Shown: positions 42,624 to 52,280 of the stretch, one piece after another | Numbering within the stretch: position 1 is the stretch's first letter | Layout: each line of letters starts with the position of its first letter | Origin: Draconibacterium mangrovi | GTDB lineage: Bacteria > Bacteroidota > Bacteroidia > Bacteroidales > Prolixibacteraceae | DNA: 64,000 nt | NCBI RefSeq assembly: GCF_010586825.1 | Contig: NZ_JAAAGB010000002.1 | Span: forward strand, 310,001 to 374,000 | Direction of reading: 5' to 3' | Made by a program: the position numbers and the translations under genes | The notes under the pieces: generated by a model | The model's input: the letters and a program-made list of their open reading frames with translations, nothing else | What the model was told of the DNA's origin: nothing | Database searches by the model: none

Positions 42624-42989
42624 TGCTTGCTCCTTATAATCTCCGAAGTTTGATAGTCTTGTAGGGGGTGTGGTGTCGCGTTAATTTGATCTTGTAGCTG
42701 TGCTTTTTGCGTATGTATTTTAATAGGGCGCATATTCAATGCGTTTTGGTTTTTATCGGAAGTTTAAAGTTAGCATTAAATAAATAAAACAACATAAGTT
42801 TAGTTCATTAGGATTTGATCCGTATAGGTTGGTGCAAAAACGAATCGGGTCCTTTTTTTTATTGGTTTAGCCCTGTGCCCTGCTATAAGCGGCTTTTTGA
42901 ATGTCAGGCAATTTTGCAGTCTTTGTAACTCGCTGATTTTAGGCTTCATGCATTCGTGTAATTGCTCAGCAAAAGTTGTAGCTTGCTTG
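42624..42989. other. Intergenic region before array C
   Basis: About 366 bp without a gene. The last 60 bp may be decayed monomers of array C (for example GCTTG at 42981 pairing with CAAGC at 43003). No clear promoter for the peptidase gene was seen. Confidence 0.35.
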
Positions 42990-43395
42990 TAACAGCGCTG
43001 CGGCAAGCAAAGAAATGTTGTGGCTCGTGCGTTGCACGGCTGCAATAAGCAAGAAATTTTTCTGGCGACCTTGTCGCACGGCTGCGATATACGAAAAAAG
43101 GTTGTGGAAGGCATGTCGCAATGTTGCAGCATGCGAAAAAATATTGTGGAAGGTATGTCGCAGTATTGTAATTAGGAAAAAATGTTGTTGCTCACCTGTT
43201 GCAGGGCTGTAACGTACAAAAAAGAATGAAGGAAGCCTGCTGCGCGGCTGTAAGAGGCAAGAAACTTTTATGGCGACCTCGCCGCACGGCTGCGGCATAT
43301 AAGAAAGAGTTTTGGAAGGCCTGTAGTGGCAATGCAATATTCGAAAAAAAAGTTGTGAGAGCACGTTGCGTGGCTGCGGTAAGGGAATTTGATTC
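42990..43395. repeat. Tandem array C: diverged 42-bp hairpin monomers with partly compensated stems
   Basis: At least nine monomers of 41-42 bp follow each other from about 42990. Several centre on a hairpin with a 5-6 bp stem and a 4-nt loop ending GGC: TTGCA-CGGC-TGCAA (43032), TCGCA-CGGC-TGCGA (43074), GTTGCA-GGGC-TGTAAC, GCCGCA-CGGC-TGCGGC. Both sides of these stems change together. Other monomers have lost clear pairing. Linkers share ACGAAAAAA-N2-TTGTGGAAGGC. Both strands stay partly open because of the period; I do not call a protein. A terminator separates the array from the EF-G-like gene. Confidence 0.82.
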
Positions 43396-43404
43396 GGTCG
43401 GACA

Positions 43405-43442
43405 TAAAAACAAAACCCCGATCCGTCAGCAGACGGACCGGG
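43405..43442 (-). terminator. Terminator downstream of the EF-G-like gene
   Basis: CCCGATCCGTC (43417-43427) pairs with GACGGACCGGG (43432-43442), one G-T pair, loop AGCA. On the minus strand it is followed by GTTTTGTTTTT. Confidence 0.88.
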
Positions 43443-43478
43443 ATTCATTAGTTATAGTAAAATGGATTAGAAAATGGT

Positions 43479-45635
43479 CTATTCTTCTTCCTGCTCGGCT
43501 TCGTAAGCTTTCAGCAGTTCTTCCTGCACGTCTGTAGGAACTTTTTCGTATCCGTCGAAATTCATTTTAAACACGCCTCTACCGCCGGTAATCGAACTTA
43601 GCGAAGTGGTGTATTTGAACATTTCTTTTTGCGGTACTTTAGCTGTAATTTTCTCCATGCCTTTTTCCGAGCCCATACCCATAATCATGGCACGACGTCC
43701 CTGCAGGTCGCTCATTGCATCGCCCATGCGGTCTGACGGTACCCAAACTTCAAGATTTAAAATTGGCTCAAGAATTTTAGGACCTGCACTTTTAAAGGCC
43801 ATGCTAAAGGCATTACGTCCGGCCAGTTTAAACGAAATTTCGTTCGAGTCAACCGGGTGCATTTTTCCGTCGTAAACATAAACGATAATATCGCGGGCAT
43901 ACGAACCGGTAAGCGGACCTTCCTCGATTTTCTCCATAATTCCTTTCAGAATAGCCGGTAGAAAGCGGGCGTCGATCGATCCGCCAACAATACTGTTCAC
44001 AAATACCAGTTTACCGCCCCAGTCCAATTTGTGCTCTTCAACCGCACGAACCGAAATTTTCTGCTCCTTATCGCCAAATTTAAACATGGTTTTAGGAGCA
44101 GCACCTTCTTCGTAAGGTTCAATAATCATGTGTACCTCGCCAAACTGTCCGGCACCACCCGATTGTTTTTTGTGGCGGTAATCGGCCTGAGCAGGTTTGG
44201 TAATGGTTTCGCGATACGGAATTTTTGGCTTCAGGTATTCCACTTCTACTTTGTGAACCTGGTCGAAATACCATTTTAATACGTTGAGGTGGTATTCGCC
44301 CTGTCCGTGTATCAATTGTTGTTTTAATTCTTTCGAGTACTCAATTACGTAAGTTGGATCTTCGTATTTGATCTTACTTAGGATTTCGCCTACTTTCTCG
44401 TCGTCGGAATCGTTAACAGCCTTAGCTGCTACAGTGTGGCGCGGCGTAGGAAATACAATCGGAGCAAATGCAGTTCCAATTTCTTTGGCTGACAGTGTTT
44501 GGTTGAATCGTGTTTCTTTCAGTTTAACGGTACAACCAAGGTCGCCTGCGTGAAGCTCTTCAACTTTCTCGCGGCTTTTACCATCAGGTACAAACACCTG
44601 CGATAAGCGTTCTTTGTTTCCGGTTTTTGAGTTGATGAGGTCTAAACCTTCTTTAACAATTCCCGACATTACTTTGAAATAGGTGATCTCACCAACGTGA
44701 GGCTCAACAGCAGTTTTAAAAACAAAAAGGCTTGGCGGTTGCGAAGCATCCATTGTTACCTCTTTTCCGGCAACAATTTTACCCATTTTCTTTTCCTTGG
44801 GTGTCGGAGCAATATTGGTAATAAACTCCATTAAGCGGCCAACACCAATGCTTTTCTTTGCACAGGTACAGAATACAGGAAACAGGGTAAGGTCGAGCAT
44901 TCCCAGCTTAATACCTTTGCGCATTTCGTCTTCGGTAAGTGTTCCTTTTTCGAAATACAGCTCCATTAAAGCTTCTTCGTTTTCGGCAGCTTTTTCAACC
45001 AGTTCGTTGTGCAGTTCTTCTGCTTTCTCCATTTCCGATTCAGGAATGTCGGAAATTTCAGGTTTACCGCTATCGTCTTTGTAGGTGTACATCTTCATTT
45101 TAAGTACATCGATAATAGACGAAAAGCCTGTTCCTGCATCAACAGGGTATTGTACTATGGTAGTTTTATTACCAAAAGTAGTTTTGCACTGATCAAGTGT
45201 GCTATCGTAATTCGAGTTTTCGTGATCGAGCTGATTAAAAACCACAACAAGTGGCGTGTGTGCGTTATCGGCATGGCGGGCTGCGGCCTCGGTACCGGCT
45301 TCAATGCCGTTTGATGCGTTAACCGTTAGTAAACCTAGTGCCGTAACACTTAACGACGAAACAACACCTCCGCACAGATCGTCCATCCCCGGGGTGTCCA
45401 TTATATTTATTTTTTTTCCGTTGTATTCGGTGTGCATCAGGGTTGAGAAAACAGAATTGCCATAATCCTGCTCTATCGGGTTGTAGTCGGATACGGTATT
45501 TTTTGAACCAACATCACCTTTACGTTTTATAATTCCACCCTCGAACAGCATAGCTTCTGCAAGGGTGGTTTTCCCACTGCCGGCATTACCAATTAGAGCA
45601 ATGTTCCGAACTTCATCGGTTTTGTAAACTTTCAT
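43479..45635 (-). CDS. Divergent elongation factor G-like protein (EF-G2 type)
   Basis: The product (718 aa) has the five-domain EF-G layout, with P-loop GNAGSGKTT (16-24). Its GTPase motifs are unusual. The switch II motif is DTPGM (80-84) where EF-G has DTPGH, so the catalytic His is Met84. The RGIT word of switch I is replaced by YGNSV (58-62). The base-specificity motif is NQLD (134-137) instead of NKxD. Domain IV keeps KQSGGAGQFGEVHM. This fits EF-G-like paralogues; Bacteroides has an EF-G2 reported to move ribosomes without GTP hydrolysis. Whether this protein is its orthologue is inference. Housekeeping fusA must lie elsewhere. Confidence 0.85.
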   Translation of the reverse strand: MKVYKTDEVRNIALIGNAGSGKTTLAEAMLFEGGIIKRKGDVGSKNTVSDYNPIEQDYGNSVFSTLMHTEYNGKKINIMDTPGMDDLCGGVVSSLSVTALGLLTVNASNGIEAGTEAAARHADNAHTPLVVVFNQLDHENSNYDSTLDQCKTTFGNKTTIVQYPVDAGTGFSSIIDVLKMKMYTYKDDSGKPEISDIPESEMEKAEELHNELVEKAAENEEALMELYFEKGTLTEDEMRKGIKLGMLDLTLFPVFCTCAKKSIGVGRLMEFITNIAPTPKEKKMGKIVAGKEVTMDASQPPSLFVFKTAVEPHVGEITYFKVMSGIVKEGLDLINSKTGNKERLSQVFVPDGKSREKVEELHAGDLGCTVKLKETRFNQTLSAKEIGTAFAPIVFPTPRHTVAAKAVNDSDDEKVGEILSKIKYEDPTYVIEYSKELKQQLIHGQGEYHLNVLKWYFDQVHKVEVEYLKPKIPYRETITKPAQADYRHKKQSGGAGQFGEVHMIIEPYEEGAAPKTMFKFGDKEQKISVRAVEEHKLDWGGKLVFVNSIVGGSIDARFLPAILKGIMEKIEEGPLTGSYARDIIVYVYDGKMHPVDSNEISFKLAGRNAFSMAFKSAGPKILEPILNLEVWVPSDRMGDAMSDLQGRRAMIMGMGSEKGMEKITAKVPQKEMFKYTTSLSSITGGRGVFKMNFDGYEKVPTDVQEELLKAYEAEQEEE

Positions 45636-46010
45636 AGTATATAAGTTTTATTGATTTATTTATTCTCGTTTTCTTCATCATTTTGAAGCGAGGTCATCAA
45701 AAATAGTAATAATTTATTAACAATCAAGAGGTAGAAATCAGGTGGAAAAAATATATAATCCGGCCCCTGTATAGTAATGGTGTTAATGCGCATCAAAACA
45801 GCTTTTTAAGTACTTTTGTTAATAATTGTTATAGTCTGAAATCATTATAAATAAGGGGGTGTAGCGAATTATCAGAATAGCATAACAATTATATCAATTA
45901 AAAAACATATGTCCTGTTTAAGCCCCTTTCAGCGCCCTTTTGGTTTGTTAATTAATTTAGAACAAATAAAAATAAGTGATAAAAATTCTTTTTTGTCTGG
46001 AATTTTCATT
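45636..46010. other. Intergenic region upstream of the cys operon
   Basis: About 375 bp without a gene. TATTTTTG (45698-45705, minus strand) is a -7 element for the EF-G-like gene. On the plus strand TACTTTTG (45811-45818) precedes an 11-bp perfect inverted repeat, ATAATTGTTAT (45822-45832) and ATAACAATTAT (45882-45892), 49 nt apart. This may be a small structured transcript or a regulator site. Confidence 0.35.
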
Positions 46011-46018
46011 TACATTTG
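46011..46018 (+). promoter_or_regulatory. -7 promoter element of the cys operon
   Basis: TACATTTG matches TAnnTTTG. A TTTG at 45992-45995 is 15 bp upstream, shorter than ideal. The transcript would start near 46025, giving about 36 nt before the leader peptide. Confidence 0.5.
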
Positions 46019-46023
46019 CACAG

Positions 46024-46039
46024 TGTGATATAAGTCACA
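46024..46039. promoter_or_regulatory. Crp-type operator TGTGA-N6-TCACA
   Basis: TGTGATATAAGTCACA is a perfect match to the CRP consensus palindrome. It overlaps the predicted transcription start, a position that favours repression. The Crp-type regulator at 29705-30334 has the recognition residues (Arg180, Glu181, Arg185) suited to such a site. Confidence 0.6.
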
Positions 46040-46060
46040 TAGAAATAATTTTAAAGCGCA

Positions 46061-46150
46061 ATGGTTAATACTTTCTCTAAAATAGCAATGATGAAAATGA
46101 CATGTATGATGTGTATGTGTTGTGATGTTATTGTTGTGCAGAGGAACTGA
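46061..46150 (+). CDS. Cys/Met-rich leader peptide of the sulfite-reduction operon
   Basis: The frame encodes 29 residues beginning MVNTFSKIAMMKM and continuing TCMMCMCCDVIVVQRN. Between codons 10 and 21 there are six Met and four Cys codons; the densest run is 46103-46123 (Cys-Met-Met-Cys-Met-Cys-Cys). An internal ATG at 46088 could also be the start. Such codon clusters before an intrinsic terminator mark attenuators, here fitting the end products of the operon (cysteine, then methionine). The stop codon is 32 bp before the terminator stem. Confidence 0.75.
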   Translation: MVNTFSKIAMMKMTCMMCMCCDVIVVQRN

Positions 46151-46215
46151 CCATAGATTGAAAATATTACTCGATTTGAAAGGCTCTTCTGTATTTGCAG
46201 AAGGGCTTTTTTTTT
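46137..46215 (+). terminator. Attenuator: intrinsic terminator with competing antiterminator pairing
   Basis: The terminator stem pairs 46183-46191 (GCTCTTCTG) with 46198-46206 (CAGAAGGGC), one T-G pair. Flanking A and T residues extend it, and nine T residues end it. The alternative stem pairs TGCAGAGGA (46137-46145, the last leader codons) with TCTTCTGTA (46185-46193), nine pairs of which two are G-U. A ribosome stalled on the Cys/Met codons would leave the first arm free, while one reaching the stop codon would cover it. So shortage of cysteine or methionine should allow read-through. Confidence 0.72.
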
Positions 46216-46262
46216 AGAATAATTCAGATGACAGAATGATAGTTTAAATAGTGATATGGCGT

Positions 46263-46514
46263 ATGGCAAAAGAAAATGGAAATACAGTTGAGAGGAAACG
46301 AAGGAGTATCGTAAAAACGATTTCGTGGCGCACCATCGGTACCATCGATACCATTCTGATCTCGTGGTTTGTGGTGGGCGATATAAATTTTGCGGTTACC
46401 ATTGGTGGTGTCGAGCTTTTTACCAAAATGACTTTATACTTTTTTCATGAGCGCGCCTGGAACAAAATCAGCTTCGGAAGGGTTAAACATACACCAATTG
46501 AATACGAAATATAA
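46263..46514 (+). CDS. DUF2061-family small membrane protein
   Basis: The product (83 aa from the ATG at 46263; a GTG at 46251 would add four residues) matches DUF2061 with RSIVKTISWRTIGTIDTI, SWFVVGDINFAVTIGGVE and KMTLYFFHERAWNKI. It has two short membrane segments. The family often travels with sulfate assimilation genes; its role is unknown. It is the first gene after the attenuator and lies 5 bp before the siroheme gene. Confidence 0.88.
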   Translation: MAKENGNTVERKRRSIVKTISWRTIGTIDTILISWFVVGDINFAVTIGGVELFTKMTLYFFHERAWNKISFGRVKHTPIEYEI

Positions 46515-46519
46515 ACAGT

Positions 46520-46972
46520 ATGGATGACAAGAATTTTTTACCAATTGCAATTGATATTGCCAACCAGAAAATACTGATAGTTGGTGGCGGAAAAAGTGCT
46601 TACAGCAAGCTAAAGATCTTGCAGCGCCACAACGCTGAAGTTGAGATACTGGCCATTGATGTATGCGATGAAATTAAAAACAGCGGGGTGAAATACATTG
46701 AAGCGCCGTATCATAAAAAATATTTAAAAGACTATTTAATGCTTTATTCCTGCTCGAACAACGAAGAGCTCGACCGGCAAATTGAAAAAGACTGTCGCGA
46801 AGAAAAGGTATTAGTTAATATTCATGATAAACCATCTCGCTGTCAGTTTGTTTCTCCTGCTATCTACCGACATGGAAATATTTCGGTGGCGGTGAGCTCG
46901 AATGGCGAGAATGTTTATGAATCGATTAGAATAAGAAATTTAATAAAAGATAAGTTGCAACTTGAAGATTGA
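46520..46972 (+). CDS. Precorrin-2 dehydrogenase (Met8/CysG N-terminal type)
   Basis: The product (150 aa) has the Rossmann start LPIAIDIANQKILIVGGGKS and the Met8 word NIHDKPSRCQFVSPAIYRHGN. This family oxidises precorrin-2 to sirohydrochlorin with NAD; in longer members it also inserts iron. The protein is short: the C-terminal dimerisation and chelatase part of about 60 residues is reduced. Iron insertion may therefore need another enzyme. CobA, encoded at the end of the same operon, supplies its substrate. The siroheme made is the CysI cofactor. Confidence 0.9.
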   Translation: MDDKNFLPIAIDIANQKILIVGGGKSAYSKLKILQRHNAEVEILAIDVCDEIKNSGVKYIEAPYHKKYLKDYLMLYSCSNNEELDRQIEKDCREEKVLVNIHDKPSRCQFVSPAIYRHGNISVAVSSNGENVYESIRIRNLIKDKLQLED

Positions 46973-47013
46973 GTTGGATACGTTCAATTCAATCTCTTAA
47001 TTAAAAATCAAAA

Positions 47014-48819
47014 ATGAGTTTAAAAGCAAATCCATTAAATGATGCACAGTTAAGTGCTTTAAGCCAGTTGGTTGAAGGCTTGAATAAAGAGCAGACTGTT
47101 TGGTTAAATGGTTATTTTGAGGGGCGATTGGCAGCCCTTGGAGGAGTTGAAGTGCCAGCTGCAGCAGGAACAACTGTAAGTGCAGCTGCTCCGGCACCAC
47201 AAAGTTCGATTAATCTTACCATTTTATATGGTACCGAAACCGGACACTCGCAGGGACTGGCCGAAAAATTAGGAGAGAAAGCTTCGTTTAAAGGAATTAA
47301 TGTCCAGGTTTTGAGTTTGTACGATTACAATTATAAAAAGCTGCACGAGGAAGACAATGTAGCGATAGTTGTTAGTACCCATGGCGAAGGCGATCCGCCG
47401 GATATGGCCGAAGATTTTTACAAATACGTCACCGGGCCGCGCGCGCCTCAACTCGAGGGAGTAAACTATTCGGTGCTGGCATTGGGTGATAAAACCTACA
47501 AACATTTTTGTAAAACCGGCGAAGAAATTGATGTGGCATTAAAAAACCTGGGTGGTTACCGAATTACGCCAGCCGTAAAATGCGATGTGGATTACGAGCA
47601 ACCATCAGAAATGTGGATGAACAACTTTCTGCTTAACCTGTCGGCTACTGAAACTCCGGAACCTGCCGCAGCAGGTGGATCAACAGCAACAGCAGGCGGT
47701 ATTGGAGAGGAGTTCTCAAAGTCAAATCCATATATGGCCACGGTATTAGAGAAAGTTCGGATTACCGGAAGCGATTCCGACAAGGAAGTGTACCATGTTG
47801 AACTTTCGCTTGAAGGATCAGGTCTGGAATACGAACCGGGCGATTCGTTGGGGATTTTCACCAAAAACCCTGAAGCTTTGGTAGAAGATATTCTGGCTTT
47901 TACGGGATTCGATCCGGAACAGAAAGTTGATGTTGGTGAAGACGAGATGAGCATAAAGGAGGCTTTGTCGCATCACCTTGAAATTACAATATTGACTTTT
48001 GATTTGCTGAACAAATACCAGGAGAAAACAAAGAATGCCGAACTGGCCAAATTGCTTGCCGACGATGAGGCACTGGATGAATATTTGTATGGCCACGATG
48101 TGCTCGACCTGCTGGAAGATTACCCTTTCGAGTGGAACGCGCGCAAACTGGTTGAGGTTTTACGTCCTATTCCGCCACGCTTGTATTCTATTTCATCAAG
48201 CATGGAAAGTGTGGGAGAGGAAGTTCACGTTACCGTTTCGGTTGTGCGTTACGAGCGTAAAAACCGCAAACGCAATGGAGCATGTTCGTCTCACCTTGCC
48301 GATAGCATTGAAATTGATGAGCAAATACCGATTTACATCGACAAAAATCCATCGTTTAAATTGCCGGCCAACGGATCAAAAATTATCATGGTTGGCGCCG
48401 GAACCGGTGTAGCACCGTATCGCGCTTTTATGCAGCATCGCGAGAGTATGGGCATTAAAGGAGAGTCGTGGTTGTTTTTTGGCGACCGTCGTTTTAGCTC
48501 CGATTTCCTGTACCAAACCGAGTGGCAAAAGCTATTAAAGAATGAAATACTAACCAAAATAGATGTGGCTTTTAGTCGCGACCAGGAAGAAAAAGTTTAT
48601 GTGCAGCATAAGCTAAAAGAGCAGCAAAAGGAAGTGTTCGACTGGCTGGAAAACGGTGCCCACTTGTATTTGTGTGGCGATATGAAATACATGGCCAAAG
48701 ATGTAAACAAGGCTTTGCTTGATATCATTCAAACTCAGGGTGGAATCAGTGAGGAACAAGCCGAAAAATATGTGAAAAATTTGAAACGTGAAAAGCGTTT
48801 CCAAACCGATGTTTATTAG
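47014..48819 (+). CDS. cysJ: Sulfite reductase flavoprotein subunit (CysJ)
   Basis: The product (601 aa) passes electrons from NADPH via FAD and FMN to CysI. The flavodoxin domain begins at about 68 (NLTILYGTETGHSQGLAEKL) and has STHGEGDPPDMAEDFY. The FAD domain has RLYSISSSMESVGEEVH, and the NADPH part has MVGAGTGVAPYRAFMQHR, LFFGDRR and YLCGDMKYMAKDV. It ends in ERFQTDVY-like KRFQTDVY. The order cysJ-cysI matches the assimilatory NADPH-sulfite reductase. The first 60 residues are a variable N-terminal region. Confidence 0.95.
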   Translation: MSLKANPLNDAQLSALSQLVEGLNKEQTVWLNGYFEGRLAALGGVEVPAAAGTTVSAAAPAPQSSINLTILYGTETGHSQGLAEKLGEKASFKGINVQVLSLYDYNYKKLHEEDNVAIVVSTHGEGDPPDMAEDFYKYVTGPRAPQLEGVNYSVLALGDKTYKHFCKTGEEIDVALKNLGGYRITPAVKCDVDYEQPSEMWMNNFLLNLSATETPEPAAAGGSTATAGGIGEEFSKSNPYMATVLEKVRITGSDSDKEVYHVELSLEGSGLEYEPGDSLGIFTKNPEALVEDILAFTGFDPEQKVDVGEDEMSIKEALSHHLEITILTFDLLNKYQEKTKNAELAKLLADDEALDEYLYGHDVLDLLEDYPFEWNARKLVEVLRPIPPRLYSISSSMESVGEEVHVTVSVVRYERKNRKRNGACSSHLADSIEIDEQIPIYIDKNPSFKLPANGSKIIMVGAGTGVAPYRAFMQHRESMGIKGESWLFFGDRRFSSDFLYQTEWQKLLKNEILTKIDVAFSRDQEEKVYVQHKLKEQQKEVFDWLENGAHLYLCGDMKYMAKDVNKALLDIIQTQGGISEEQAEKYVKNLKREKRFQTDVY

Positions 48820-48870
48820 TGAGACTCAACTTCTAAAAGTGTAACGCATTAAAAGTTATTAGTCGACCTA

Positions 48871-48946
48871 ATCCCGAGAATAAAGTTCATCGGGATAAAT
48901 AAAAATAGCAGGAGCGACTGCAACTACCTTCATGTAGTTGCTCCTG
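48871..48946 (+). promoter_or_regulatory. Two hairpins in the cysJ-cysI gap
   Basis: ATCCCGA (48871-48877) pairs with TCGGGAT (48890-48896). A stronger, bulged hairpin pairs GCAACTAC (48920-48927) with GTAGTTGC (48934-48941), closed by CAGGAG (48909-48914) and CTCCTG (48941-48946). The leader ACTATAACCCAAAAATT then leads straight into the cysI ATG. They may stop decay or set translation; there is no T-run. Confidence 0.5.
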
Positions 48947-48965
48947 AAACTATAACCCAAAAATT

Positions 48966-50666
48966 ATGAGTGAAAATATTAACTGGCAGGAGCTTTCAGA
49001 AGTTGAAAAGCTCAAATACGATAGTAACTATTTACGGGGAACCTTAACCGAAAGTCTGGCCGATCCGATTACCGGGGCCATATCGGATGGAGATACGCAA
49101 ATCTCGAAATTCCATGGTATTTATCAGCAGTGGGATCGCGATATTGACAAAGAGCGAAAACGGCAAAAACTGGAACCTGCCTTTTCATTTTTGATACGGT
49201 TGCGTATGCCCGGCGGAAGATTTACGCCAGGGCAATGGCTGGCAATGGATGAGTTGTCGGAAAAATATGCCAATGGTACATTGAAATTGACAACAAGGCA
49301 AACATTTCAGTTGCACGGTGTACTGAAGCGCAATCTGAAGGCCACCATTAAAGAAATGAACGACCATTTGATGGACACCATAGCTGCGTGTGGCGATGTA
49401 AACCGTAACGTAATGAGCCATGCCAATCCGGCGCAGTCATCGTTTCATGCTGAAGTGATTGAGACAGCTAAAAATATCAGCGAGCATCTTTTGCCCAAAA
49501 CAGGTGCTTACCACGAAATCTGGCTGGATAAAAAACTTGTGGCCGACAGTAAAGAGGAAGTGGAACCCTTGTACGGAAACCGTTACCTGCCGCGAAAATT
49601 TAAAATCGGGATTGTAATTCCACCACATAATGATTGTGATGTTTTTTCGCAGGATTTGGGTTTTATTGCCATTGTTGAAAACGACAAAATTGTTGGGTAT
49701 AATGTTGCTGTTGGCGGTGGTTTGGGAACTACTTTCGGGAAACCCGAAACTTATCCGAGAACCGGAACTGTAATTGGTTTTTGTACCCCAGGTCAAATTA
49801 TTGATGTTGCAGAGAAAGTGGTGCTGGTACAGCGTGATAACGGTAATCGAAAAGACCGGAAACAGGCCCGTTTAAAATACACCATCGACCGAATGGGTGT
49901 AGAGGAGTTCGTTGCAGAACTGACAAAGTACCTGGGGTATGAACTGGAGCCGGAACGCGAATATGTTTTAGACCGAAACGGAGATGATTTTGGCTGGATA
50001 AAAGGCAGCGACAAAAAGTGGCATCTCACTTATTTTGTAGAAGGCGGCCGCGTGCTTGACCGGGGAGAATACAAACTGAAAACCGCTCTTCGTGAGATAT
50101 CAAAAGTGATCGACGGTGATATTATCTTAACCGGAAATCAGAACCTGATCATTTCGGGAATGAGCACAAAAGTGAAAAACCAGGTGGATGCCTTACTAAA
50201 AACTTATGGCGTGTCTCCTGAAGATATTTCCGGCTTGCGAAAAAATTCAATTGCCTGTGTTGCTTTGCCAACATGCCCGCTGGCATTTGCTGAAGCCGAA
50301 CGTTATCTGCCTGATTTGGTATCGAAAATTGAAACAATACTGAATGAACACGAGCTGGGCAAAGAAGAGATTGTAATTCGTATGACCGGCTGCCCCAATG
50401 GTTGCGGGCGTCCTTATCTGGCCGAAATTGGCCTGATCGGTAAATCGCCGGGTTACTACAATTTATACCTTGGTGGAAGTTTTAACGGATCGCGTTTGAA
50501 TACGCTCTACAAACAAACCATCAACGAGGAAGGGATACTGAACGAGCTACGTCCGATTATTGCTGATTTTGCAGCAAACCGTGAGGATGGAGAGCATTTT
50601 GGCGACTTTGTTATCCGCAATAATTATGTGGAGGAAATTAAAGAAGGCAAGTATTTTAAGCACTAA
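48966..50666 (+). CDS. cysI: Assimilatory sulfite reductase hemoprotein subunit (CysI)
   Basis: The product (566 aa) reduces sulfite to sulfide with six electrons at a coupled siroheme and 4Fe-4S centre. The cluster ligands are Cys431 and Cys437 (CVALPTCPLAFAE) and Cys476 and Cys480 (MTGCPNGCGRP). The half-repeat sulfite-binding words are KLTTRQTFQLHGV and GDVNRNVMSHANP. With cysJ before it, this is the NADPH-dependent form rather than a ferredoxin-linked nitrite reductase. Its siroheme comes from the two other enzymes of the operon. Confidence 0.95.
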   Translation: MSENINWQELSEVEKLKYDSNYLRGTLTESLADPITGAISDGDTQISKFHGIYQQWDRDIDKERKRQKLEPAFSFLIRLRMPGGRFTPGQWLAMDELSEKYANGTLKLTTRQTFQLHGVLKRNLKATIKEMNDHLMDTIAACGDVNRNVMSHANPAQSSFHAEVIETAKNISEHLLPKTGAYHEIWLDKKLVADSKEEVEPLYGNRYLPRKFKIGIVIPPHNDCDVFSQDLGFIAIVENDKIVGYNVAVGGGLGTTFGKPETYPRTGTVIGFCTPGQIIDVAEKVVLVQRDNGNRKDRKQARLKYTIDRMGVEEFVAELTKYLGYELEPEREYVLDRNGDDFGWIKGSDKKWHLTYFVEGGRVLDRGEYKLKTALREISKVIDGDIILTGNQNLIISGMSTKVKNQVDALLKTYGVSPEDISGLRKNSIACVALPTCPLAFAEAERYLPDLVSKIETILNEHELGKEEIVIRMTGCPNGCGRPYLAEIGLIGKSPGYYNLYLGGSFNGSRLNTLYKQTINEEGILNELRPIIADFAANREDGEHFGDFVIRNNYVEEIKEGKYFKH

Positions 50667-50712
50667 TTCCATTAGTAACAGGTAGAAATCAAAACTTAAA
50701 AAGCAAACAAAC

Positions 50713-51552
50713 ATGAGAACAACAGTATCGATATTAGGTTGTGGATGGCTTGGAACAGCGTTGGGAAGATCATTGCTCCGAAAAGGCTGGAAAGTTAAAG
50801 GTTCGGTGGCGTCAACGCAAAGTTACAACCGGCTTGAGGTGAGTGGAATTAGTGCATTTTATGTGAAAGCCAAAGCGCAATCGCTGACGGTGGATTACAA
50901 TAGTTTTTTCAATACCGATGTGCTTATTATCAGCATTCCGCCAACGCGAACAGATTGTGTGGAGGACTCATACCCAAAAAAAATTGAGCAGGTGATTGCC
51001 AAAGTTGAGGAGTTGAACATTAAAAAAGTTCTTTTTATTTCTTCAACGTCGGTGTACGAATCGAAAAATGCAGAAGTAAAAGAAGGTGATGAGGGAACGC
51101 CGGAAAAAGCCAGTGGGCGAGCTTTGTTAAAAGCGGAAAAACTGTTGCTGAATAATCCGGCATTTCAAACTACTGTAATTCGTTTTGGCGGTTTGATCGG
51201 ATACGACCGCAATCCGGCACGTTTTGTACAAGGCAAAAATACACCGGTTTTTGATGCACCTGTAAATTTGATTCACCGCGACGATTGCATAAATATCATC
51301 ACTCAAATTATTGAAAAAGATATTTGGGGCGAGGTGTTCAATGCATCGAGCCCTGAGCATCCCGGACGAAATGAGTTTTATGCAAAAGCTGCAAAAATCA
51401 GTGATCTGCCAATTCCGGTGTTTTCAAAAGACAAAGGAAGTTACAAGGTGATTAACAGCGATAAACTTATTGAGGCGTTGGATTATAAGTTTGTATATCA
51501 AAGTCCGATGGACTACTTAAAAGAAGTGGAAGAGTGGGCCTACAGAATTTAG
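50713..51552 (+). CDS. Atypical SDR-family NAD(P)-dependent protein
   Basis: The product (279 aa) has a Rossmann start ILGCGWLGTALGRSLLRKGW, which is the GxGWLG type of YeeZ-like atypical SDRs, followed by LFISSTSVYES, where SDR epimerases have their Ser/Thr and Tyr. The usual YxxxK is not clear (the nearest is ASGRALLKAE). It is 46 bp after cysI and 2 bp before cobA, so it belongs to the operon. Its role in sulfur or siroheme metabolism is unknown. Confidence 0.78.
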   Translation: MRTTVSILGCGWLGTALGRSLLRKGWKVKGSVASTQSYNRLEVSGISAFYVKAKAQSLTVDYNSFFNTDVLIISIPPTRTDCVEDSYPKKIEQVIAKVEELNIKKVLFISSTSVYESKNAEVKEGDEGTPEKASGRALLKAEKLLLNNPAFQTTVIRFGGLIGYDRNPARFVQGKNTPVFDAPVNLIHRDDCINIITQIIEKDIWGEVFNASSPEHPGRNEFYAKAAKISDLPIPVFSKDKGSYKVINSDKLIEALDYKFVYQSPMDYLKEVEEWAYRI

Positions 51553-51554
51553 AT

Positions 51555-52280
51555 ATGGAACAGTTGGGAAAAGTTTATATTGTAGGAGCGGGCCCCGGAC
51601 CGGCAGATTTACTCACTGTGAAAGCGCACAATTGTATTAAAGAGGCAGATGTGATTTTATACGATGCCTTGATTTCGCGCGATGTTCGGGCGCTTTTCCC
51701 GGAGAATGCAGAACTTATTTTTGTGGGTAAACGTGCCGGCGATGGCGTTGATGTAACGGAGCGGCAAAACTCCATCCACCACAAAATTGAAAAGCACGCA
51801 AAACAGGGGAAAGTGGTGGTGCGTGTGAAATCGGGAGATCCGATGATTTTTAGCCGGGGAGCGGAAGAAACCTCGTATCTGCAGGAAAAAAATATCCCTT
51901 TTGAAGTGGTGCCGGGTATTTCGGCGTTTAATGCGGCATCGGCGGAATTTGGTATTCCGTTAACCGACCGGCGGGGAAGCAACTCGCTGCACCTGCTTTC
52001 AGGACGCGATGTGGCTGGGAAATTGCTCAGCGTAAAACAGTTGGTAAGTATTCTGGAAAACCGCGGGACCGCTGTGATTTACATGGGCACGAAAGTACTG
52101 GAGGAAATTTACGAGGCGCTGGATGTCTTTCACCGCGAATGTATTCAGACTACAATCGTTTCACGTTCCGGCCGGTGGGATGCACAAAAGTTTAAAGGGA
52201 CATTGCAGGAGATGGTTTCTTTGAATAGCGAAACACCTGTAAAAACGCCGGCTTTGATTTATTTACGAATGGAATGTTGA
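51555..52280 (+). CDS. cobA: Uroporphyrinogen-III C-methyltransferase
   Basis: The product (241 aa from the ATG at 51555) methylates uroporphyrinogen III twice with SAM to give precorrin-2. Signatures are VYIVGAGPGPADLLTVKA, DALISRDVR, FVGKRAGD, the VRVKSGDPMIFSRGAEE SAM site, and VVPGISAFNAASAEFGIPLTDR. It is a single-domain enzyme; the dehydrogenase part of CysG is encoded separately at the front of the operon. The longer frame from 51534 overlaps the previous gene and is less likely. The gene ends the operon. Confidence 0.95.
   Translation: MEQLGKVYIVGAGPGPADLLTVKAHNCIKEADVILYDALISRDVRALFPENAELIFVGKRAGDGVDVTERQNSIHHKIEKHAKQGKVVVRVKSGDPMIFSRGAEETSYLQEKNIPFEVVPGISAFNAASAEFGIPLTDRRGSNSLHLLSGRDVAGKLLSVKQLVSILENRGTAVIYMGTKVLEEIYEALDVFHRECIQTTIVSRSGRWDAQKFKGTLQEMVSLNSETPVKTPALIYLRMEC

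Follow-up and report, generated by a model that had tools for sequence, protein, structure and literature searches.

The operon for sulfite reduction and siroheme synthesis in the window is very probably (we put the probability near 0.88) controlled by a ribosome-mediated attenuator of the trp/his type that would sense charged tRNA-Cys and probably also charged tRNA-Met. The window is the whole stretch of 64,000 nucleotides that was analyzed, and it comes from a Draconibacterium-group genome of 5.9 Mb. At the sequence level, an open reading frame rich in the relevant codons, an intrinsic terminator, a covarying antiterminator, a protector helix and a pairing region that a stalled ribosome would leave free were all found upstream of the first gene.

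Organization of the leader and the operon

The operon spans positions 46263 to 52280 and comprises genes for a DUF2061 protein, SirC, CysJ, CysI, an epimerase-like protein, and a uroporphyrinogen-III methyltransferase. In the 5'-to-3' direction, the DNA upstream of the operon contains the sequence TACATTTG, a palindrome, a 29-codon open reading frame, and a terminator hairpin with nine T residues. The features are as follows, with the basis of each assignment in parentheses.

46011 to 46018, + strand: promoter -7 box, TACATTTG (sequence; conservation of TAnnTTTG)
46024 to 46039, no strand assigned: palindrome TGTGATATAAGTCACA, TGTGA-N6-TCACA (sequence; at the inferred transcript start)
46061 to 46150, + strand: leader open reading frame of 29 codons, MVNTFSKIAMMKMTCMMCMCCDVIVVQRN followed by a stop (direct reading, peptide search)
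46072 to 46078, + strand: region 1, TTTCTCT, which pairs with region 2 to form the protector 1:2 (folds)
46088 to 46123, + strand: putative regulatory codon run, codons 10 to 21, with six Met and four Cys codons (direct reading; family comparison)
46136 to 46146, + strand: region 2, GTGCAGAGGAA, in the last sense codons, which pairs with region 1 or region 3 (folds, covariation)
46182 to 46194, + strand: region 3, the 5' arm of the terminator, which pairs with region 2 (antiterminator) or region 4 (terminator) (folds, alignment)
46197 to 46215, + strand: region 4 (46197 to 46207) and nine T residues (46207 to 46215), intrinsic terminator (sequence, folds, alignment)
46263 to 46514, + strand: DUF2061 membrane protein, first gene (PF09834, E 1.7e-21)
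46520 to 46972, + strand: siroheme synthase N-terminal-domain protein of the precorrin-2 dehydrogenase type, here named sirC (TIGR01470 above cut-off; PF13241)
47014 to 48819, + strand: cysJ, NADPH sulfite reductase flavoprotein (TIGR01931 above cut-off)
48966 to 50666, + strand: cysI, NADPH sulfite reductase hemoprotein (TIGR02041 above cut-off)
50713 to 51552, + strand: NAD-dependent epimerase-like protein (weak PF13460 and TIGR01777, both below cut-off)
51534 to 52280, + strand: uroporphyrinogen-III C-methyltransferase of the cobA/cysG C-terminal type, for siroheme (TIGR01469 above cut-off)

An earlier note on this DNA had described a promoter element, a 29-codon frame with six Met and four Cys codons within codons 10 to 21, and an intrinsic terminator with nine T residues. 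All three were recovered: the promoter box was read at 46011 to 46018, the frame was read directly at 46061 to 46150, and the hairpin was located at 46178 to 46211, with the T residues at 46207 to 46215. The epimerase-like gene (50713 to 51552), which lies between cysI and the siroheme methyltransferase gene, is an unexpected operon partner. In another part of the window, at 42800 to 43540, overlapping open reading frames with repeated motifs lie between an elongation-factor-G-like gene and its neighbor and look like imperfect repeats.

Conservation of the leader among Draconibacterium and its relatives

The earlier note had proposed that related genomes be searched for a conserved short frame and a conserved alternative pairing. 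In order to obtain a denominator, genomes were screened with PF01077 (cysI), which was found in 86 of 140, and 78 stretches reaching up to 7 kb upstream of cysI were fetched. DUF2061 and/or sirC together with cysJ-cysI and enough upstream DNA were present in 61 of the 78 regions, which with the window makes 62 loci. A Met/Cys-dense leader was present in every one of these 62, and the short frame is thus conserved. Three regions that end before the possible leader position (L138, L144, and L175) and one that shows no operon gene (L183) were excluded.

The densest nine residues contained at least six Met or Cys in 59 of the 62 leaders and four in the remaining three, compared with at least six in only 6 of 3,677 other short open reading frames of the same loci. 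Leaders were chosen as the densest short open reading frame per region, and the fair controls are therefore those in which the best frame of each searched stretch was taken in the same way: none of 62 reverse-strand windows (maximum, three) and none of 1,240 shuffled windows (maximum, five) reached six. Thirteen loci had another operon type (L173, L174, L179, L180, L181, L185, and L188 to L194), with a CysJ that was 41 to 44% identical in most and without DUF2061 or sirC. The same search found no leader in these 13 loci, with at most four Met or Cys in nine residues.

The leader of Draconibacterium sediminis (L031) was 97% identical to that of the window. A search with the 29-residue peptide gave matches in 26 of 140 genomes at an E value of ≤0.1, of which 24 were judged from their surroundings to be true leaders; the other two (L024 and L026) were attributed to chance, as was a second match in the window's own genome (L002; E value, 0.36), which is not a leader. 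The leaders of L160 and L163 lie about 2.3 kb upstream of DUF2061 and were located by a search widened by hand. In L014, L018, L019, and L150, a glutamyl-tRNA-reductase-like gene comes first (Pfam GlutR_N was checked for L014). In the window's own genome, no short open reading frame with at least five Met or Cys per nine residues was found at cysD, at cysH, at the one SAM riboswitch locus, or at the three PF01053 genes examined among nine such places.

Seventeen leader peptides were compared with Pfam and NCBIfam, and no model matched. An Rfam scan of the window detected no riboswitch or leader at or above the gathering score; the best weak match was PyrR, with 25.6 bits compared to a gathering score of 54. 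As a consequence, current annotation misses these leaders.

Codon content of the leader

In the window, Met stands at leader codons 10, 11, 13, 16, 17, and 19, and Cys stands at codons 15, 18, 20, and 21. The Met/Cys core lies several codons before the stop, as it does in the other family leaders except L195. The order of residues in the core was CMMCMCC in most of the window's genus and differed between genera (MMMCMCC, MCMCMCMCF, MCCCMCC, MYMCMW, and others), whereas the Met/Cys content was maintained. Because the order varies between genera while the content stays constant, it is the codon content that is kept, rather than one peptide.

It is possible, if somewhat doubtful, that the same attenuator senses cysteine only and that the Met codons serve as filler or tune the pause. 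The Cys codons are the closest to region 2, and they are TGT in 84% of cases in the leaders (207 of 247) compared to 47% (223 of 478) in downstream open reading frames of at least 140 codons at the same loci. Such a bias points to selection acting on these codons themselves, but TGT also accounts for 14 of the 21 Cys codons in the window's own operon genes. Outside the family, three leaders of family f122 (L231, L245, and L249) end in runs of Cys with few Met before genes of the PAPS-reductase type (Pfam was checked for L245). However, every one of the 62 leaders has three to eight Met codons beyond the start, and Met makes up 19.8% of leader residues when starts are included. Furthermore, the Met density is kept in three leaders (L143, L158, and L166) in which Cys falls to one core codon, and it recurs in unrelated leaders of the Balneolaceae. 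These observations argue against a sensor for cysteine only, and the supply of charged tRNA-Met is probably sensed as well.

Promoter and palindrome

The sequence TACATTTG at 46011 to 46018 is presumably a -7 promoter box of the Bacteroidota type. At 56 of the 62 loci, TAnnTTTG occurred no more than 110 bases ahead of the leader, compared to 9% of shuffled sequences. The -33 element is weak (TTG at 45993 to 45995, just 15 bases before TACATTTG). A sigma-70-style scan of 45500 to 47000 for promoters and terminators reported neither this promoter nor the terminator at 46178 to 46215.

The palindrome at 46024 to 46039, which the earlier note does not mention and which we take to resemble the Crp/Fnr-type class of operators, overlaps the inferred transcript start. 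TGTGA-N6-TCACA with at most one mismatch was present at 24 of the 62 leader loci, compared to 0.13% of shuffled sequences, which suggests a second, transcriptional layer of control in part of the family. A Crp/Fnr-type factor bound at this site might even be the main control, with the terminator setting only a basal level. This seems unlikely, because the palindrome was not found at this stringency at the other 38 leader loci. Control by such a factor and the attenuator may act together.

Alternative helices in the leader RNA

The terminator hairpin at 46178 to 46211 has 15 pairs in the fold, with a core in which 46182 to 46192 pair with 46197 to 46207, and the whole terminator extends to 46215. 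The fold of 46025 to 46215 had a z score of -5.6, and none of 200 shuffled sequences was as stable. The nine-pair stem that the earlier note had proposed between 46137 to 46145 and 46185 to 46193 is present, with two G-U pairs, and in the fold it extends to ten pairs (46136 to 46145 with 46185 to 46194). The duplex between the last 30 bases of the leader and the terminator arm was calculated at -13.1 kcal/mol, a value reached by 42 of 5,000 shuffles of those 30 bases. The fold of the window also contains a 1:2 helix, absent from the earlier note, in which 46072 to 46078 pair with 46140 to 46146. Because region 2 also pairs with the leader's own start, the full trp-type set of helices (1:2, 2:3, and 3:4) is available, and the trp/his-type layout is matched more fully than had been claimed.

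When the window sequence was folded with a ribosome stalled at the last Cys codon and with RNA up to the end of region 3, the antiterminator formed (-16.8 kcal/mol). When region 4 was added, the terminator folded, as it did when the ribosome was placed at the stop codon. Leader L195, which has a Met/Cys leader and a terminator without recognizable regions 2 and 3, was omitted from the structure counts because it lacks the region 3 motif. With a stalled ribosome and before region 4 exists, 2:3 folded in 59 of 61 leaders; with the ribosome at the stop codon, 3:4 folded in all 61. In untranslated full leaders, 1:2 (at least five pairs) formed in 60 of 61 and 3:4 formed in 61 of 61. Without a ribosome and before region 4, only 34 of the 61 leaders formed 1:2 (at least five pairs), and 27 formed 2:3 (at least six pairs). 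The 3:4 hairpin had a median energy of -17.9 kcal/mol over the 61 leaders, and a run of five T residues was present within 125 bases of the leader stop in 62 of 62.

At equilibrium, all 61 leaders favored the terminator over the antiterminator, and they did so even when a stalled ribosome was in place. The model therefore depends on 2:3 forming first in time. Escherichia coli trpL behaved in the same way in the same folding test, including the preference for the terminator at equilibrium, and this preference is thus not in itself evidence against attenuation.

The alternative pairing is conserved in the relatives, with covariation. Anchors for regions 1 and 2 were set by motif (by hand for L153), and L187 was omitted from the anchored 3:4 count. 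The terminator helix 3:4 was paired in 98.9% of cells over 42 sequences. In the anchored blocks of regions 2 and 3, nine positions were 89 to 100% paired over 61 leaders, and pairing dropped outside the blocks, to 15% at the next position on one side and 57% on the other. Two positions covaried among the 42 distinct blocks, and the controls with which they were compared, like the other shuffle controls for pairing and covariation, leave the kinship between sequences in place. One position was G-C in 17 blocks, G-U in 9, U-A in 7, U-G in 6, and unpaired in 3, and none of 20,000 shuffles was as well paired; the other was G-C in 21, A-U in 9, G-U in 6, and unpaired in 6, and 66 of 20,000 shuffles were as well paired. 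All nine 2:3 pairs were intact in 28 of the 42 blocks compared to a mean of 14.4 when partners were swapped, and none of 2,000 swaps gave as high a number.

An unguided alignment of the 42 distinct sequences (A2), which misplaces region 2 of L187, served as a check on the anchored blocks. In this alignment, 2:3 had eight pairs and was 95.5% paired, with 22 cells changed on both sides. Its covariation score was not reached by any of 500 shuffles, and slid versions of the helix were 41 to 57% paired. The number of pairs changed on both sides (two) and the number of pair types (eight) in A2 were no higher than in shuffles. For the protector, 43 leaders have an intact region 1 motif, and one 1:2 position was paired in 28 of them, a level reached by 3 of 5,000 shuffles.

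In 49 of the 61 leaders, the CAG of region 2 begins 12 or 15 bases past the last preceding Cys codon, about where the footprint of a stalled ribosome ends. The remaining spacings were 1, 3, 9 (two leaders), 13, 18 (two leaders), and 21 (five leaders) bases. Region 2 was in the frame of the leader in 59 of 61. In the two exceptions, L177 and L187, the bases of region 2 are kept but are read in another frame (AEE instead of QK or QR). In these two leaders it is the RNA that is kept, not the peptide.

The frame shift in L177 and L187 bears on a further explanation, in which the nascent Cys/Met peptide would bind siroheme, heme, a metal, or a thiol and arrest the ribosome. The peptide is rich in soft-metal ligands, and its CMMCMCC core was nearly invariant in the 17 leaders that were aligned first. 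The core order nevertheless changes between genera, down to a single Cys in MYMCMW, and the other conserved stretches are those needed for RNA pairing. Thus, it seems very unlikely that the peptide itself is the sensor.

That the core is a UG-rich site for an RNA-binding protein and the reading frame is incidental is highly improbable: the core is indeed UG-rich and TGT is preferred over TGC, but TGC still accounts for 40 of 247 Cys codons, an ATG-started frame of 26 to 39 codons runs through the core in all 62 leaders, region 2 nearly always follows in that frame, and Balneolaceae cores with more C still read Met/Cys. A plain terminator accompanied by a fortuitous open reading frame was considered as well and, like the arrest peptide and the protein-binding site, was ranked low.

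Proposed mechanism

Computation established that the leader is conserved, which codons it contains, the three alternative helices with their covariation, and the spacing, whereas it is inferred that the ribosome stalls, that transcription terminates in the cell, in which direction the system responds, and that methionine is sensed. In the attenuator model, a ribosome would begin the leader while the leader is still being transcribed. If Cys (or Met) were short, the ribosome would stall within codons 10 to 21 and would leave free the CAG of region 2, which in the window lies 15 bases past the last Cys codon. Free region 2 would then pair with region 3 once region 3 had been made, no terminator would form, and the operon would be read. 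If sulfur amino acids were plentiful, the ribosome would reach the stop and cover region 2, and regions 3 and 4 would form the terminator. If the leader were not translated, region 1 would take up region 2 and the terminator would also form. The product of the operon's enzymes is sulfide, which supplies the sulfur of both Cys and Met.

Comparison with known systems

To our knowledge, the regulation of assimilatory sulfur metabolism in the Bacteroidota is little known in comparison with CysB or CymR. The trp, his, thr, ilv, leu, and phe attenuators of Proteobacteria are the established examples of ribosome-mediated transcription attenuation. The leader of the window resembles them in that runs of codons for the product amino acids, regions 1 to 4 with the helices 1:2, 2:3, and 3:4, and a U-run stand before a biosynthetic operon. 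It differs in its combination of Cys and Met codons, in the sulfite-reduction and siroheme operon that follows, and in its occurrence in the Bacteroidota, and with no Rfam match it shares no sequence family with them. Terminator-based control of sulfur-amino-acid genes is also known from the SAM-I riboswitch (RF00162), but that is a metabolite-binding RNA without a reading frame, and none is present in the window.

The candidate cysteine attenuator uORFC-8-2 of cysS in the Rhodobacterales (PMC8632094) likewise has Cys codons in a short leader and a terminator. It has two tandem Cys codons before a cysteinyl-tRNA synthetase gene in Alphaproteobacteria, with no Met run mentioned in the available text, whereas the type of leader found in the window has a mixed Met/Cys run and precedes DUF2061/sirC-cysJ-cysI or a glutamyl-tRNA-reductase-like gene. 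Leaders with Cys runs and without terminators have been described for mycobacteria and others (PMC1262725), and the mycobacterial cys leader is reported to be cysteine responsive in Mycobacterium smegmatis (Canestrari 2020, as cited in PMC9094748 and PMC9031893). Those leaders resemble the one studied here in placing a reading frame with Cys codons before cys genes, but their Cys codons are contiguous and close to the stop, the terminator hairpin is not conserved, and the transcripts are leaderless (PMC1262725); they also belong to another phylum. Unlike in these polycysteine attenuators, the terminator is conserved here and the core lies several codons before the stop.

In 2010, the authors of PMC2965389 knew of no leader-peptide system outside Proteobacteria and Actinobacteria, and they extended the range to Firmicutes. 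For Flavobacterium psychrophilum, leader-peptide attenuation before amino-acid operons has been suggested, without detail in the part available (PMC9723704). The available portions of PMC7366714, PMC13236596, and PMC4833913 describe no Cys/Met attenuator of sulfite-reduction genes. A search of open papers, represented mostly by titles and the beginnings of abstracts, likewise returned no such attenuator and no Cys attenuator in the Bacteroidota. The earlier note had regarded the use of this mechanism for sulfite and siroheme genes in Bacteroidota as novel. That stands with respect to the papers searched, Rfam, Pfam, and NCBIfam, but Cys-codon leaders are known elsewhere, and attenuation had already been inferred in F. 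psychrophilum. The mechanism is thus of a known kind, and the amino acids, genes, and phylum appear to be new.

Related leaders outside the family

When 393 genomes of the order were searched with a profile, no additional clear leader turned up beyond the family; the best E value besides the window was 0.004, and none of the 8 loci inspected among the 29 fetched non-window loci had a leader. A search of the genome collection with the exact DNA pattern for CM[MV]CMCC, in which the residue order is selected by construction, gave 31 stretches: 13 from the family, six from Balneolaceae, four from Flavobacterium, one from Saprospiraceae, one from a Bacteroidetes metagenome-assembled genome (MAG), and six (L033, L036, L045, L049, L050, and L058) that were judged to be chance or unrelated.

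In the six Balneolaceae matches (L035, L041, L042, L044, L048, and L054), a CMMCMCC leader with a terminator of its own is directly followed by a SAM-I riboswitch (RF00162, in 6 of 6), which places two sulfur sensors in series. The next gene in all six encodes a metY-type enzyme of Cys/Met metabolism (PF01053 was checked in L041, the others by eye). In the four Flavobacterium matches (L037, L038, L053, and L055), a short open reading frame ending in SCMMCMCC and a stop, with no clear terminator, lies immediately upstream of a gene for a TonB-dependent receptor, whose product has 848 to 849 amino acids in the three complete loci (Pfam was checked in L053).

In other families of the phylum, the DNA upstream of cysI-type genes was also examined, in 40 stretches. 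A short open reading frame with at least six Met or Cys per nine residues was present in 12 and absent from 28, including most of those with sulfite reductases of about 700 amino acids. In the Balneolaceae (f142), leaders were found in all six stretches fetched, out of 13 such genomes in the search list; f142 was assigned to this family because the genomes that hold L054 and L042 share their hits with f142 members. These leaders (for example, MCCMMCCMMM or MCMCCMCCMC) lie 145 to 163 bases before a rhodanese gene (Pfam was checked in L229), which is followed by cysI. The leader end, GGTAGTGG, matches the arm of the terminator (CCACTACC or CCGCTACC), and L237 shows coordinated changes on the two sides. 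At another locus (L247, 4602 to 4870), two tandem Cys-rich leaders, each with a terminator, precede genes for a siroheme methyltransferase, a CysJ-type protein, and CysI.

In family f122, five stretches (L230, L231, L241, L245, and L249) have Cys-rich leaders with no clear terminator, and except in L230 the downstream genes look like cysH-cysD-cysN (Pfam was checked in L245, the others by eye). By eye, these five share the sequence GTAGACTA immediately ahead of the leader; in some of them it is repeated or inverted, and it looks like a candidate operator of a sulfur regulator.

Antiterminator pairing was compared with 200 shuffles for each leader. At most five were as good in L229, L233, L234, L236, L237, L262, the six Balneolaceae loci with a riboswitch, and the first of the two L247 leaders; the number was 12 for L232 and for the second L247 leader. 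The pairing was not better than in shuffles (at least 25 of 200 as good) in L032, L057, L226, L251, L253, and L254. Judged by these loci, the principle extends beyond the window's family, but the sequences differ from one another and most of the stretches sampled have no such reading frame.

Implications for sulfur regulation in the Bacteroidota

A broader proposal can be put forward tentatively, and we give it somewhat less than an even chance. Attenuators with mixed Met/Cys runs that read both amino acids may be widespread in the Bacteroidota, Balneolaceae included, where they would replace a sulfur repressor or act on top of one. They may have emerged, or been remade, on several occasions with pairing sequences that are unrelated, sometimes in duplicate, and may be stacked on a SAM-I riboswitch at the metY-type loci of Balneolaceae. 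If this is true, tRNA charging and S-adenosylmethionine would be integrated on one transcript at those loci.

The combination of a Met/Cys-dense short open reading frame and a terminator offers a search signature for other families. For the family of the window, a conserved, covarying attenuator provides a rule that can be tested on the sulfite-reduction operons of most members, and it would extend terminator-based leader-peptide control to cysteine and methionine and to the Bacteroidota.
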